A DNA stretch of 64,000 nt, taken from assembly GCF_006517175.1 (NCBI RefSeq), contig NZ_CP041186.1, forward strand, positions 3,623,074-3,687,073, written 5' to 3'. Of the stretch, positions 25,551 through 47,896 are shown piece after piece. Made by a program: the position numbers and the translations under genes. This DNA is from Persicimonas caeni. GTDB lineage: Bacteria; Myxococcota_A; Bradymonadia; Bradymonadales; Bradymonadaceae. The notes beneath the pieces are model-generated. The model worked only from the letters and a program-made list of their open reading frames with translations. It made no database searches and was not told the origin of the DNA. Within the stretch, counting starts at the first letter, position 1. Every line of letters starts with the position of its first letter.

Positions 25551-26075
25551 TTAAAACTCGACGCGAAGCATCGCTCCGTTACCCGTCAGCCCCACCGACC
25601 ACTTCAGCTTGCTCGCCTGGCCGTCGGAGACGTCCTCGGGCAGGCCCAGCTCCTTGCGAAGCTTGCGGTTGTGCTTGTCGGCCACCTGGCTCACGGGCAG
25701 GTGCTCGGCCTTCCCCACGATGGTCTCGTCGTCGACCTTCGCGTTGTCGGCGAGCACGTCGTCGTTCATCACCAGCTCGAACCGGCCGCTTTGGCGCAGC
25801 GCCTTCTCGAGGGTGTCGGCGGCCATCTCGGCCTCGGCGTGGCCGCCGGCGGCCACCACGATGACGCTGGCGTTGTCGCCGGTCGCAAAGTAGCTCGCCG
25901 CCGCGTCGCCCGGGAAGGTCGCGACCCACTCGCCGAGCGGGTCGGGTTGTTCCTGGTTTGCCGATTCCGGGTCGGCCGTCTCTTCCTCAGGACTCGGCGC
26001 CTCCTGGGCGAAGCTCGACGAGGGAATCAGTAGAGAAGCGACCAAAAGGGCGACGGACGTGCGGCGACAAAACAT
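25551..26075 (-). CDS. Short internally deleted paralog of the secreted TolB/CsgG-like family
   Basis: 174 aa with a signal peptide (ALLVASLLIPSSSFA). Its N-terminal half (EWVATFPGDAAASYFATG ... VMNDDVLADNAKVDDETI) matches the two downstream-numbered paralogs at 26124-27407 and 27793-28992. It then jumps from KAEHLPVSQ directly to VADKHNRKLRKELGLPED and the common C-terminus (MLRVEF). About 250 residues, including both membrane segments of the longer paralogs, are missing, with the frame kept. It is therefore an in-frame deletion derivative. Whether it is still functional cannot be told from sequence. GAGG lies before the ATG. Confidence 0.8.
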   Translation of the reverse strand: MFCRRTSVALLVASLLIPSSSFAQEAPSPEEETADPESANQEQPDPLGEWVATFPGDAAASYFATGDNASVIVVAAGGHAEAEMAADTLEKALRQSGRFELVMNDDVLADNAKVDDETIVGKAEHLPVSQVADKHNRKLRKELGLPEDVSDGQASKLKWSVGLTGNGAMLRVEF

Positions 26076-26123
26076 ACAAACAGCCTCGAATCAGAATCAC
26101 AGATAAAATCAATCGGCCACGAT

Positions 26124-27407
26124 CTAGAACTCGACGCGCAGCCGCAGTCCGCCGCCGTCGGCATTGCCGGTGGCGTCGATCGACCAACTGTAGTTGCTCG
26201 CCTGCTCGTCAGCCAGCGCGTCGGCCAGGCCCAGGCGCCGCTTGAGTCGCTGGTTGTGCTTGTCGGCCAGGCGCTTCGCCTCGCTGAGCTCGACGGGGTG
26301 CGGGTTGATCAACAGCGAGCCGAGGTAGACCAGCGAGCCCGCCCCGAACAGAATCCAACCGTTGCGCTGGCGCGTATCATAGATCTCCTGGTCTTTCTCG
26401 ATCGCCGCCTCCACACGGTCCTGGCAGGCATTGTACTGCGCCTCCTGCTCGTACCAGTCGTACTTGGCGTCGCAATCCACGTAGTCGATATCGAGCCACG
26501 GGTCTTTGGCCGTCATGCCGTAGGCCGCACCTCCGATGGCCACGGCGACCCCGACCCCGAAGAGGCCATATTTCAAAGCGCGCTTTTTGTTGTAGTCGTC
26601 GGCCAAGTCCGACCGCCCGATCTCCTCGTAGAACTCGTCGACCGCGAGCGGCTTTTTGTACTTGCCGCGATACACGTTGCTCCACTGCCCCACCACGCTG
26701 CCGTACTGATTGACGGCGGTGACGTCCTCGAACCAGATATAGTTCTCGAGGTACTCCTGCTTGGCCCGCGCGAGCTCGCGGTCGCTGAGGCTCGGATCGT
26801 CAGCCTCGGCCTGCTCGACCTGCTCCTCGGTCGTCTCGGCGACGGCCTCGGCGGCCTTCTTGCTCACTCCCGAGCCCGGGCTGGAGGCCACCTCGGCGCT
26901 CGCCTCGACGGGCACACCGCGGGTGGCCGACATCGCCGCGACCGCCTCGCTCGACACCTTGTCGTAGATCGTGACCACCGCCGTGGGCGGCTGGCCCGCG
27001 CCGGCGTCGAACACGCGCACGATCGCCATGTAGCGCACCGGCAGATGCTTGGCCTTCGCAAAGATCTGCTCGTCGTCGAGCTTCGAATTGTCGGCGAGCA
27101 TGTCGTCGTTCATCACCAGCTTGAACTTGCCGGTGTTGCGAAGCGCCTCCTCGAGCACGTCGGTCGCCATGTCGACCTCGGCGTGCTCGCCGGCGGCCAC
27201 CACGACCGTGCGAACCTTGCTCGACGTGGGAAAGTAGCTCGCCGCCGCGTCGCCCGGGAAGGACTTGGTCCACTCGCTCCGAGCGTCGGGCTGTTCGGCG
27301 TCTTGGGGCTCGGTCTCGGTCGAGCCGGGGTCTTGGGCGAGGACCGCGGTCGGTGTGCTCGCAAGCGAGAGGGTGAGCAACGAGGCGATTAATCGTCGAT
27401 TTGGCAT
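26124..27407 (-). CDS. Secreted/membrane protein with TolB/CsgG-like N-terminal domain, paralog 2
   Basis: 427 aa. A signal peptide (SLLTLSLASTPTAVLA) is followed by an acidic spacer and a domain of about 110 aa (VVVAAGEHAEVDMATDVLEEALRNTG... FKLVMNDDMLADN... VVTIYDKVSSEAVAAM). Its pattern, a strand, a helix of the type LxxALrxtgkF, and later strands, resembles the TolB N-terminal/FlgO/CsgG fold; the similarity is a judgement by eye. Two hydrophobic segments (about residues 285-300 and 348-368) flank a Cys-containing loop (YVDCDAKYDW... YNACQDR). The end is NPHPVELSEAKRLADKHNQRLKRRLGL plus a beta-strand tail. Tandem arrangement with two paralogs implies local duplication. Confidence 0.8.
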   Translation of the reverse strand: MPNRRLIASLLTLSLASTPTAVLAQDPGSTETEPQDAEQPDARSEWTKSFPGDAAASYFPTSSKVRTVVVAAGEHAEVDMATDVLEEALRNTGKFKLVMNDDMLADNSKLDDEQIFAKAKHLPVRYMAIVRVFDAGAGQPPTAVVTIYDKVSSEAVAAMSATRGVPVEASAEVASSPGSGVSKKAAEAVAETTEEQVEQAEADDPSLSDRELARAKQEYLENYIWFEDVTAVNQYGSVVGQWSNVYRGKYKKPLAVDEFYEEIGRSDLADDYNKKRALKYGLFGVGVAVAIGGAAYGMTAKDPWLDIDYVDCDAKYDWYEQEAQYNACQDRVEAAIEKDQEIYDTRQRNGWILFGAGSLVYLGSLLINPHPVELSEAKRLADKHNQRLKRRLGLADALADEQASNYSWSIDATGNADGGGLRLRVEF

Positions 27408-27500
27408 GGGTCCGCCCAGGCTAAACAGGGGAAATAGAGCGCGGCGAGTTTAGGCGGGCGTCGATCCCGCGTCAACGTGGCTTCGGGCGTTGCGAAACGT

Positions 27501-27766
27501 GCGTCGGTCGCTCCGATGGCCGTTTCTCATTTGCGAAACGCGCGTCGGTCGCTCCGAGGCGACCTCTCGCAAGTGCATAAGGCGCGTCGGTCGCTCCGAC
27601 GGGCTTTTTTCATTTGTAAAACGCGCGTCGGTCACTCCGATGCGGCCTCTCGCAAGTGCATAAGGCGCGTCGGTCGCTCCGTTCGCCGGTTCGCATTTGC
27701 CAAGATGCCCGTCGGTCGCTCCGACGCGACTTCTTCTGCCGCAAAAACGCGCGTCGGTCGCCCCGA
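27501..27766. repeat. Seven-copy phased array of a 16-bp dyad-containing repeat
   Basis: Cores GCGTCGGTCGCTCCGA (or close variants) start at 27501, 27542, 27584, 27625, 27667, 27709 and 27751, spacings of 41, 42, 41, 42, 42 and 42 bases. Each core has the dyad TCGG-n5-CCGA, extended to CGTCGG/CCGACG in copies 3 and 6. The 25-26-base segments between cores are related to each other (CATTTGCGAAACGC, CTCGCAAGTGCATAAGGC types alternate), so this is not a CRISPR array. The spacing equals about four helical turns. It fills the 385-base gap upstream of the 26124-27407 gene. Confidence 0.9.
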
Positions 27767-27792
27767 ACGCCGTTTTACACCTTCGAGACGTG

Positions 27793-28992
27793 TCAGAACC
27801 CGACCCGCACGCTCATCCCACGCGGGCTCACGCCCACCGACCACTCCCACGCGCTCGCGTGCTCGTTGGCCGCGGCCTCGGGCAGGCCGAGCTCGTCGCG
27901 GATCTCTTGGTTATGCTCGCCGGCGAGTTGCTTGGCCTCGTCGAGCTCGATGGGGTGCGGGTTGTAGAGCATCCCGACGAACACCGACGACACGAACAGG
28001 CCGCCGCCGACCACGCCGGCGGTCACCAGGCGCGTCTCGTCGCCCGGCTCGCCGGTGAGCAACAGCGCGGCCGCCGAGCCGGCGCCCAGCGTGGCCAGGC
28101 CTGCCACCGTCGTCCACTTGATCGTGCTGTGCGTGTCGTACGCCTCGGCCAGATCGGGCCGGCCGATCTCGCGGTAGAACGCCTCGCCCTCGAGCGACTC
28201 CTTCTGGTCGCCGCGGTAGACGCGCTTCCACTGGCTGAGCGGCGCCTCGTTGCCCGCCTCGTCGAACCAAACATAGCGCGCCAGGTACGCCCGGCGCGCC
28301 GGGTCGGCCGCGCGCTCGGCCGTCTCGACGGCCCCCGCCGCCGCGTCGGCGCCGGCTCGTTCGGCGTCTTGTTTGCCCTGCTCGGTTTGTTGGCTGGCGT
28401 TGTCGGTCTTCTCGGTCTCCTCAGTCTGCGCAGGCGCGCTGTCCGCCGGCGGCCGGTCGCTCGGCTTGGGCTCCGCCCCGCGGGTCACCGACAGCGCCGT
28501 GGCCGCCTCGCCGGTCGCCTTGTCGTAGACGGTCACCACCGCCGTGGGCGGCTTGCCCGCCGCCCCGGCATACACGCGCACCACGGCGACCTGCCCGACG
28601 GGCAGGTGCTTGGCCTTCGCGACAATCTTGGCGTCGTCGACCGCCGAGTTGTCGGCGAGCGCGTCGTCGTTCATGACGAAGTGAAACGCGTCGCTGTCGC
28701 GCAGCGCGCCCTCGAGCGTATCGGCCGTCAACTCAACCTCGCTGTGTTCGCCCGCGGCGACCACGATGACCGCGGCGTCGTCGCCCCGACGAAAGTAGGT
28801 CAACGTCGCGTCCGCGCCGAACGAGGCGCGCCAGGCGCCCGCGGCCGTGCTCGACTGCGCGTCGGGCCCCTCGGCCGCGCCCATCGGGCCGCGCGGTTCG
28901 TCGGAGGGTGCATCGTCCTGGGCGAAGGCGGCGCCAGGGGCCAGGGTGAGGGTGGCGATAATGAGTAGAAGCGTCAGGGGGCGGTACGGCAT
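27793..28992 (-). CDS. Secreted/membrane protein with TolB/CsgG-like N-terminal domain, paralog 1
   Basis: 399 aa. Signal peptide (LLLIIATLTLAPGAAFA), acidic spacer, then the same domain as its two neighbours (VIVVAAGEHSEVELTADTLEGAL, VMNDDALADNSAVDDAKIV, KAKHLPVGQVAVVRVYAG, PPTAVVTVYDKATGEAATAL). The middle is rich in Ala, Glu and Gln and probably disordered. Two hydrophobic segments follow (about 290-312 and 320-345). The C-terminus is NPHPIELDEAKQLAGEHNQEIRDELGL and a strand ending VRVGF. The cysteines of paralog 2's loop are absent. A role in the envelope is likely; no specific function can be given. Confidence 0.8.
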   Translation of the reverse strand: MPYRPLTLLLIIATLTLAPGAAFAQDDAPSDEPRGPMGAAEGPDAQSSTAAGAWRASFGADATLTYFRRGDDAAVIVVAAGEHSEVELTADTLEGALRDSDAFHFVMNDDALADNSAVDDAKIVAKAKHLPVGQVAVVRVYAGAAGKPPTAVVTVYDKATGEAATALSVTRGAEPKPSDRPPADSAPAQTEETEKTDNASQQTEQGKQDAERAGADAAAGAVETAERAADPARRAYLARYVWFDEAGNEAPLSQWKRVYRGDQKESLEGEAFYREIGRPDLAEAYDTHSTIKWTTVAGLATLGAGSAAALLLTGEPGDETRLVTAGVVGGGLFVSSVFVGMLYNPHPIELDEAKQLAGEHNQEIRDELGLPEAAANEHASAWEWSVGVSPRGMSVRVGF

Positions 28993-29084: not shown

Positions 29085-29212
29085 GAGGCGGATAAAGACC
29101 GATCACGATCACGACGACGATCACGCCACGATTGACCGTGAGCGTACATTTCGGTCGTGATCGTGATCGTCGTCGTGATCGGCAGTTCCATATCGGCAGT
29201 TCTATCCGCCTC
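29085..29212. repeat. GATCAC/GTGATC hairpin element, copy A
   Basis: Bounded by the perfect terminal inverted repeat GAGGCGGATA (29085-29094) and TATCCGCCTC (29203-29212). Inside, the left arm CCGATCACGATCACGACGAC (from 29099) faces the right arm GTGATCGTGATCGTCGTCGT (from 29157), imperfect because the GATCAC and GAC units are in slightly different order. It lies just after the end of the minus-strand lipoprotein gene. Related copies are at 30601, 31253 and 31554. Confidence 0.85.
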
Positions 29213-30513: not shown

Positions 30514-30600
30514 GGTGACTTCCTCAATTCATAGGTGAATAGCGACGGGGCTATCGTAGAGGAAGTTGGGGGTGGAGCCAAGAATTGGAGGATGGGGAGA

Positions 30601-30801
30601 CGCGGATAAAAGCCGATCACGATCACGACGACGATCACGGTCGAAGCCGACGTAAGCGGTCAATCAACCGTGATCGTGATCGTCGTCGTGATCGTGATCG
30701 GCCGTTCCCTCCGCAGTTCCCGATCAGAGAAATTCTGCCAATTTCCCGCTCAGCGCATCTTCTAGGCCGCCTCCGCTAAAAAAGGACGCAACAAATCGAG
30801 C
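30601..30801. repeat. GATCAC/GTGATC hairpin copy B with conserved 3' leader
   Basis: The left arm begins GCCGATCACGATCACGACGA (30612-30641) and the right arm ACCGTGATCGTGATCGTCGT (30667-30702). It is followed by a leader of about 100 bases (30703-30801, starting CGTTCCCTCCGC and ending CAACAAATCGAGC). That leader recurs almost unchanged after copy C. The unit precedes the four-helix-bundle gene; the remaining bases of the 30514-30904 gap hold the gene's Shine-Dalgarno AAGGAGA and nothing else I can call. Confidence 0.85.
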
Positions 30802-30904
30802 TCCTGCGCCGAAAACCGTAATGAGGCGACTCCTTGATGGTGGTCGCTCTCATGATCGTTCTGTTTCAACTATCAACCTCGAGGAGACTCGAGAAGGAGA
30901 TAAC

Positions 30905-31240
30905 ATGCTCGCTTATGAGAAACTCGATGTTTACCAGTGTTCCCTCGATTTTGTCGCCCTGAGCGCCCAAGTGATCGAGGCGCTACCGCGCGGCCATAGC
31001 GATGTCGCCAACCAATTTCATCGAGCAGCCTATTCAGTTCCACTTAATATCGCAGAAGGTAGCGGAAAGATGACCGCCAAAGACTCGCGTCGCTACCGCG
31101 CGATTGCGCGTGGTTCAGCTGCCGAATGCAACGCGATTCTCGATGTCCTCGATCGCCTTAATGTCATCGAGTCACAGCAGTACCGGAAGGGCAAAGAGTT
31201 GACGAAGCGGATGGTGCAGATGTTGACAAAGATGTGCTGA
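30905..31240 (+). CDS. Four-helix-bundle protein, S23/TIGR02436 (Avd-like) family
   Basis: 111 aa. The start at 30905 is fixed by AAGGAGA five bases upstream. The family signature is clear: YEKLDVYQCSLDFVALSAQV, the helix FHRAAYSVPLNIAEGSGK, and a third helix RYRAIARGSAAECNAILDVLDRL. These small basic proteins form pentameric helical bundles. Relatives occur in intervening sequences of 23S rRNA genes and, as Avd, in diversity-generating retroelements, where they bind nucleic acid. Here the gene is framed by copies of a GATCAC/GTGATC hairpin and its tail is duplicated downstream, so it looks like part of a repeated, possibly mobile unit. No reverse transcriptase is nearby. Confidence 0.9.
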   Translation: MLAYEKLDVYQCSLDFVALSAQVIEALPRGHSDVANQFHRAAYSVPLNIAEGSGKMTAKDSRRYRAIARGSAAECNAILDVLDRLNVIESQQYRKGKELTKRMVQMLTKMC

Positions 31241-31252
31241 TAGTCCGCAGAC

Positions 31253-31459
31253 GCGGATAAAAGCCGATCACGATCACGATCACGACGACGATCACGGTCG
31301 AAGCGAACGTAGGCCGTCAATCAACCGTGATCGTGATCGTCGTCGTGATCGTGATCGGCCGTTCCCTCCGCATTTCCCGATCAGAGAAATTCTGCCAATT
31401 TCCCGCTCAGCGCATCTTCTAGGCCGTCTCCGCTAAAAAGGGACGCAACAAATCGAGCC
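31253..31459. repeat. GATCAC/GTGATC hairpin copy C with leader
   Basis: The left arm (31263-31298) and right arm (31324-31359) are each 36 bases and start GCCGATCACGATCACGATCA and ACCGTGATCGTGATCGTCGT. The following leader (31360-31459) repeats 30703-30801 with few changes. Together they reproduce the unit that lies upstream of the intact gene. Confidence 0.85.
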
Positions 31460-31461
31460 CC

Positions 31462-31545
31462 AATGTCATCGAGTCACAGCAGTACCGGAAGGGCAAAGAG
31501 TTGACGAAGCGGATGGTGCAGATGTTGACAAAGATGTGCTGATAG
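31462..31545 (+). pseudogene. Truncated second copy of the four-helix-bundle gene (3' end only)
   Basis: From AATGTCATCGAGTCACAG to the TGATAG stop, this segment is essentially identical to 31160-31243, the last 27 codons of the intact gene, at an offset of 302 bases. The rest of the gene, about 250 bases, and its start are missing; the leader of copy C joins directly to this tail. It is a deletion remnant of a tandem duplication. Confidence 0.9.
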
Positions 31546-31553
31546 CCCGCAGA

Positions 31554-31672
31554 CGCGGATAAAAGCCGATCACGATCACGATGACGATCACGGTCGAAGC
31601 GAACGTAGGCCGTCAATCAACCGTGATCGTGATCGTCGTCGTGATCGTGATCGGCCGTTCCCTCCGCATTTC
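31554..31672. repeat. GATCAC/GTGATC hairpin copy D
   Basis: The left arm starts GCCGATCACGATCACGATGA (31565-31594) and the right arm ACCGTGATCGTGATCGTCGT (31620-31655), then CGTTCCCTCCGCATTTCC. The leader seen after copies B and C is cut short here, near the end of the aconitase gene. It closes the array of hairpin, gene, hairpin, gene tail, hairpin. Confidence 0.85.
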
Positions 31673-31686
31673 CGCCAATTAACACC

Positions 31687-47273: not shown

Positions 47274-47896
47274 ATTTTCGATGCCATTATGACGGCATAA
47301 TGGTGCGTCTACCGACAGAATTTGCCGGCATGGGCGTTGCGGATTTTCTTGTGATGTCGACAGGTCAACGGGCTAGGCCCGCCCCGTTTTTAAGCCACCT
47401 CGGATAGGTCATACGCTGGGCGCATGCCTACCCCGACGCCACGACCTACAACGACGCCGCTGCGGCACTCCCATGGCACAGGCCCATCTTCGCGCCACGT
47501 CTAACTTCGGCGCATCAACAAACCCGCACCGGGCAAATCCGATAACTGCGCTCCGCCACAAGGGCGAAGCTACCGGCTCCACCTCCGCCGAGCGCGCCGA
47601 TGATGTACGGTCGCACATCCCATCGAAAATACGCTCGCTACGAAGGCTTTGTTTTGCGGATCGGGAAACCGTTCCGCCGCAAATGCCCTGAGCCCACCGG
47701 CTCAGCCACCAGGGAGTGAGCCAAGGCCAACTTCGACTCACCCGCCCGTTTCAAATTTGTGGGGAAATTCGTGCGCACGATACTTCCACCCCTCATTACG
47801 GTTTTCGGCAAAAACGCGATTTTGTTGCGTACTTTTTCTCGGGATCGGCCCGTGACGGGATGCACGGGGCGTATTTTTCTTGTTTCCGCTATTCGC
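47274..47896. other. Long intergenic region without a supported gene
   Basis: 623 bases of lower GC than the neighbours, between the convergent ends of the 975-aa protein gene and recD. Just after the stop is CCATTATG-acgg-CATAATGG (47284-47303), a perfect 8-bp hairpin. Short open frames exist on both strands but have no ribosome-binding site or recognisable domain. It may contain a decayed gene or mobile element. Confidence 0.5.

Follow-up and report, generated by a model that had tools for sequence, protein, structure and literature searches.

In the window, the 64,000-base stretch analysed here (bases 3623074-3687073 of the single-contig, 8.05-Mb genome of Persicimonas caeni), an array of hairpins encloses one intact gene of the 23S_rRNA_IVP family (IVP) and the tail of a second copy (Table 1). 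The ORF scored 83.9 bits against PF05635 (curated cut-off 33.8) and 75.9 bits against the NCBIfam model TIGR02436 (cut-off 24), while a profile of the genome's five full IVP proteins matched PDB 2gsc with an E value of 2.3e-30. A solved relative of IVP is a homopentameric four-helix bundle, and the protein is not known to carry a nuclease motif. The locus is bordered by a lipoprotein-like ORF (assigned by eye) on one side and an aconitase gene on the other. Elsewhere in the window, three paralogous-looking genes stand in a row on the minus strand (25551-28992), with a repeat-rich stretch between the second and third (~27450-27850).

Table 1. Features of the hairpin array, in window positions
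Feature	Position	Strand	Remarks
Hairpin A, stand-alone	29085..29212	.	GATCAC/TGATCG hexamer arms; ends GAGGCGGATA/TATCCGCCTC
Hairpin B	30599..30720	.	5' arm of the IVP element: right arm, (TGATCG)n
Promoter-like motif	30787..30822 (genome 3653860-3653895)	+	1 mismatch to CGCAAC-N14-TGCCGAAAACCGTAAT
Intact IVP gene	30905..31240	+	111 aa; PF05635 23S_rRNA_IVP; TIGR02436 four helix bundle protein
Hairpin C	31250..31377	.	3' arm of the intact copy: left arm, (GATCAC)n
Leader, second copy	31378..31460 (end approximate)	+	breaks off within the promoter-like motif
IVP tail, second copy	about 31461-31543	+	~350 bases of the unit gone
Hairpin D, array end	31552..31673	.	

All four hairpins have a forward-then-reverse arm pair, (GATCAC)n, loop, (TGATCG)n. 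Hairpins B, C and D are almost identical, although C carries one GATCAC hexamer more than the other two. Hairpins A and B folded as RNA with z scores of -6.35 and -7.86, and hairpin C folded as DNA with a z score of -7.09; in each case none of 200 shuffles folded as well. The first-pass annotation had placed hairpin B and a leader, the intact gene, hairpin C and a leader, a gene tail and hairpin D in this order, with hairpin A standing alone between clean ends, and the order, the coordinates and the ends of A were all reproduced. It had also proposed a tandem duplication of gene plus hairpin, followed by a loss of about 250 bases. Duplication and loss both hold, but the size does not: since the spacing is 651 bases from B to C and 302 from C to D, the second unit falls short of the first by about 350 bases. 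The local array goes back to a tandem duplication with subsequent internal loss. Around the intact gene, the order formed by the inner arms of B and C is reverse arm, gene, forward arm, as in other IVP elements of the clade described below, so that on one reading each hairpin would be the 3' arm of one unit joined to the 5' arm of the next. The forward-reverse hairpin also exists alone, as hairpin A.

Complementary arms and their repeat period

To compare loci, we aligned the upstream flank of each IVP gene with the reverse complement of its downstream flank. Flank scores at the six IVP loci of this genome were 86 (window), 49 (L043), 44 (L044), 33 (L041), 30 (L019) and 21 (L042), with three of the six reaching 44. 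None of 58 mismatched pairs scored as high as the window locus, where the IVP ORF is thus enclosed by inverted repeats. The genome's two other IVP genes of the period-6 clade, L019 and L043, each lie between two hairpins; as DNA these folded with z scores of -5.04 and -2.08 (the latter weak) at L019, and of -4.54 and -6.31 at L043. L041 is placed between fliP and fliQ, and L044 is a truncated IVP remnant between trkH and trkA.

We applied the same test to a named set of 80 loci, picked by protein similarity alone and carrying 23 phylum names by taxonomy, of which 70 were testable. Scores of at least 35 were obtained in 44 of the 70 loci, compared to 49 of 4830 mismatched pairs, and the remaining 26 scored below 35. 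In a same-contig control at this threshold, 34 of 56 loci scored positive compared to 1 of 112 positions. For a family set made up of 26 loci from related genomes and the six described above (30 of 32 testable), 20 of 30 loci reached at least 44, compared to 0 of 384 overlapping window positions. On Nostoc plasmids the arms, built of near-perfect heptamers (AGTAGGG and AACAGGG), directly border the ORF, and one of these plasmids carries its IVP gene antisense between nrdB and nrdA. Arms were absent at the plasmid locus L275, and arms of note were absent from one IVP subfamily (L114, L115, L116, L119 and L133; scores 19-29). IVP genes outside rRNA therefore commonly lie between mutually complementary arms of short tandem repeats. 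The link between hairpins and four-helix-bundle genes, first proposed from the window alone, extends to other genomes and phyla, where this kind of hairpin recurs beside IVP genes.

Of 109 loci, 84 had flanks more strongly periodic than their shuffles, mostly with a period of 7 or 6, while periodicity was found at 8/112 and 16/146 control positions. When 108 IVPs were placed on a tree, the period-6 label, carried by 21 rows, required three changes, compared to a mean of 18.9 after shuffling, and none of 500 shuffles gave a count as low. Twenty of the 21 period-6 loci, including the window locus, fell into one 25-row clade with support of 99/99 (bootstrap not fully settled), while most loci with another period had period 7. 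Named members of this clade belong to seven phyla: Myxococcota, Planctomycetota, Kiritimatiellota, Thermodesulfobacteriota, Verrucomicrobiota, Bacteroidota and Pseudomonadota. The Bacteroidota member (L173) has no significant period, and the outliers within the clade are L113, with period 7, and L123 and L129, with period 13. The 5' arms of the clade share the motif T[AG][AC]TC[GT] (5.80 bits, null maximum 3.80), and a TYAG-type heptamer was likewise found in 5' arms (3.66 bits, null maximum 3.23); the class-8 motif was at or below the largest null value. Repeat period, whether 6 or 7, tracks the IVP clade. It is not a host trait, because arms of period 6 (window and L043), 10 (L041) and 8 (L042) occur together in the genome of P. 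caeni.

Matched flanks also scored higher than mismatched flanks inside a single period class. Within period 7 the medians were 43 and 19, with 37 of 45 loci above the 95th percentile, and within period 6 they were 54 and 20, with 10 of 18 above it. The two arms of a locus are thus alike beyond their common motif.

Dispersed copies and gene-less hairpins

Two IVP copies in G004 occupy unrelated sites, and their similarity stops with the arms. In G056, a 3.4-kb query containing one copy gave 67 matches, some of which are not separate copies; among the matches fetched, 17 copies had both ends, GGGCGCGATGATCG...GGGGATCGCGCCC or close forms, and their flanks differed. In G056 copies of 532-575 bases, the length leaves space for the IVP ORF alone, and repeat numbers vary between copies. 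Nine copies (L277-L285) share one common internal deletion (~139 bases of gene) and sit at unrelated sites. This indicates that a gene-broken form has multiplied, and that a complete gene is not needed in the spreading copy. Nine-base direct repeats flanked 2 of 16 testable G056 copies (L253 and L283), and direct repeats of at least 5 bases were absent from the other 14. One copy, L289, is interrupted by a gene-less period-7 hairpin of ~171 bases with CCTAG on either side. When G070 was searched for the empty site of one G056 copy, the flanks were located on different contigs. Two IVP-carrying plasmids of Calothrix brevissima, compared for the same purpose, also have the genes beside IVP in common and so could not serve as an empty-site pair. 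Separately, G030 contains a multi-copy element of ~1 kb (L261-L264) with two diverged, convergent IVP-like genes and repeats at its ends, its copies being ~85-88% alike.

In the genome of P. caeni, a scan of stretches around exact 15-mer matches identified 41 hexamer-arm sites, 29 two-armed and 12 single. Twenty-five of the two-armed sites are reverse-forward hairpins, and the four forward-reverse ones are hairpins A to D. The 37 sites beyond A to D have the same hexamer arms without the window's IVP gene. The arms of the array are thus not unique to its locus. The first-pass proposal that hairpins can move or be copied without the gene agrees with these gene-less sites and with the multi-copy, gene-deleted derivatives in G056. 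At genome 3092872-3093797 (L016), four tandem units of ~285 bases each contain a TGATCG hairpin beside a GTGTCAGGC-type motif, and some arm sites have other simple repeats nearby.

A promoter-like motif and candidate partners

The motif CGCAAC-N14-TGCCGAAAACCGTAAT, which we take to be FliA-like from its appearance, occurs at 46 places in the genome with at most two mismatches. In five of the six IVP loci of P. caeni, the motif or a near form separates the 5' arm from the gene, so that the gene's own transcript would not include that arm. It was also found upstream of Y1_Tnp genes, two PDDEXK_3 genes (PF13366), three DUF559 genes, DprA and a UPF0102 gene; one example each of PDDEXK_3, DUF559, DprA and UPF0102 was assigned by family search and the rest by eye. 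Complementary flanks (score of at least 34) accompanied 16 of 20 motif-bearing Y1_Tnp genes, both PDDEXK_3 genes and one of three DUF559 genes, and 0 of 15 rows for other motif-bearing genes (two loci untestable). Since these sporadic small nucleic-acid genes have promoter and flank type in common, we infer that PD-(D/E)XK nucleases are candidate partners of IVP elements.

Examples of motif places are L085, L074, L033 and L040. As the motif is common to DprA, UPF0102, FliP, Y1_Tnp, PDDEXK_3, DUF559 and IVP genes, this group could represent an uptake/export regulon. At three genome places (window 47791-47837 on the minus strand, L037 and L038), a motif copy stands ahead of a conserved stretch that looks non-coding, GGGTGGAAGTATCGTGCGCACGAATTTCCCC...GGTGGCTGAGCCGGTGGGCTC or close forms, and that may encode a small RNA.

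Two further partners were considered. The P. caeni genome has 26 Y1_Tnp genes, while a Y1_Tnp match was absent from 7 of 15 IVP-carrying genomes, including G056 (the seven are drafts, 91-100% complete). An RVT_1 match was absent from 6 of the 15, and none of the RVT_1 matches in P. caeni lies inside the window. Three of the 15 (G048, G101 and G107, all drafts) had neither. On the evidence of these genomes neither family is a general requirement, and we rejected both Y1_Tnp and a reverse transcriptase as obligatory partners. The window locus also lacks the neighbouring reverse transcriptase expected of an Avd gene of a diversity-generating retroelement.

Interpretation and comparison with known systems

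The array probably represents a mobile, foldback-like DNA element, small and with IVP as its only gene, that has been copied locally in tandem. The basic unit would consist of a short-tandem-repeat arm, in some cases with its own promoter behind it, the IVP gene and the complementary arm. IVP would bind the arms of its own clade, most likely in the form of cruciform or folded single-stranded DNA, and may help in the copying or insertion of hairpins along with a further nuclease or with replication or uptake machinery. Gene-less hairpins would be mobilised in trans.

An alternative is that the arms act as RNA, forming a stem that RNase III excises from host transcripts, so that the element is tolerated in operons and rRNA and RNA-level selection maintains the arms. 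IVP and the ORFs of rRNA intervening sequences (IVSs) are one protein family, hairpins A and B fold strongly as RNA, and IVP insertions occur inside operons. For Coxiella burnetii, the 23S rRNA IVS is described as a selfish element of 428 nt that contains an S23p ORF, heptamer GACAGAT repeats upstream of that ORF, and an inverted-repeat stem of 28 bp at which RNase III cuts (PMC4990558). Selection on an RNA stem predicts that G.U mismatches outnumber A.C mismatches in the arms. However, there was no such excess in the pooled arms of 66 loci, which contained 83 G.U and 103 A.C mismatches (19 loci compared to 31), a result that fits a DNA-level role for the arms. The position of the promoter-like motif on the gene side of the 5' arm also argues against this reading, which we regard as unlikely. 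The hairpin core was absent from the single 23S gene found in this genome (others may be missed), conserved 23S motifs were found beside 0 of 106 IVP loci, and an Rfam search with the leader motif of 12 loci gave weak chance matches only, with no riboswitch or known RNA. As it is sited outside the 23S gene, we rejected the window locus as a 23S rRNA IVS. Of the original suggestion of a hairpin element that had left the rRNA gene, the part that holds is a hairpin element carrying an IVP gene; its RNA nature and its exit from rRNA find no support here.

The hairpins could instead be REP-like sequences moved by the genome's HUH transposases (Y1_Tnp), with IVP as a passenger. In its favour are the 26 Y1_Tnp genes, the promoter-like motif they share with IVP genes, and the GTGTCAGGC-type motif, which is of a kind that also flanks Y1_Tnp genes and lies at most 60 bases from 18 of the 41 hexamer-arm sites. 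In contrast, none of hairpins A to D has such a motif nearby, the arm period tracks the IVP clade, and multi-copy G056 is among the IVP genomes without a Y1_Tnp match, which together make this explanation distinctly improbable. That intergenic simple repeats merely expand by replication slippage, with IVP genes landing nearby, would fit the variable repeat numbers and the simple repeats near some arm sites, but is very hard to reconcile with the excess of matched over mismatched flanks within a period class, the rarity of periodicity at control positions and the fixed ends of the elements.

Beyond the window, the foldback-like DNA element leads us to a broader and more tentative proposal, which we put forward at somewhat less than even confidence. 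IVP proteins may constitute a hitherto unrecognised mobility class based on hairpin recognition, and IVP elements a ubiquitous equivalent of foldback transposons in prokaryotes, in which each clade reads a repeat length of its own (6 or 7), rRNA IVSs are members lodged in rRNA, and gene-less hairpins, those of P. caeni among them, are their MITEs. IVP elements would then offer an origin for rRNA IVSs and account for many of the orphan hairpins and tandem-repeat islands seen in bacteria. Genes annotated as IVP, 'four helix bundle' or 'S23' occur in many phyla without a function, and a defined DNA partner, in the form of arms whose repeat period and motif are particular to the clade, would make that function directly testable. 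The link of a protein clade to a repeat length across phyla was unexpected. In the open-access literature we found no account of repeat-armed IVP genes lying outside rRNA.

Among known systems, the 23S rRNA IVS has the same protein family and an ORF within inverted repeats, and the heptamer period of the Coxiella element is that of the majority class of IVP arms (PMC4990558). The elements described here differ in lying outside rRNA, in the lack of a G.U excess, in their own promoter-like motif and in their multi-copy, gene-deleted derivatives. REP/REPIN sequences and their RAYT (TnpAREP) proteins, which co-evolve, resemble them as dispersed hairpins linked to a small protein gene that they flank (PMC8266576). 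Unlike RAYT, IVP is not an HUH enzyme, its arms are tandem hexamers or heptamers, and it occurs in genomes without a Y1_Tnp match. Avd of diversity-generating retroelements resembles PF05635 proteins (PMC10053308), but IVP occurs without RVT_1, as noted above for the window and for six genomes. Terminal inverted repeats made of tandem short repeats, which mark foldback (FB) transposons, are present in IVP elements. The FB transposon Tm1 has composite terminal inverted repeats with a variable number of a short motif, MITE-like derivatives, nested copies and 9-bp target duplications (PMC3169594); the G056 elements are similar, with 9-bp duplications limited to the two copies above. Foldback transposons such as Tm1 are eukaryotic and some of them contain a putative transposase (PMC3169594), whereas the elements described here are bacterial and IVP is their sole gene. 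IVP was previously known mainly from rRNA insertions; the new points are this class of element and the correspondence between protein clade and repeat period.
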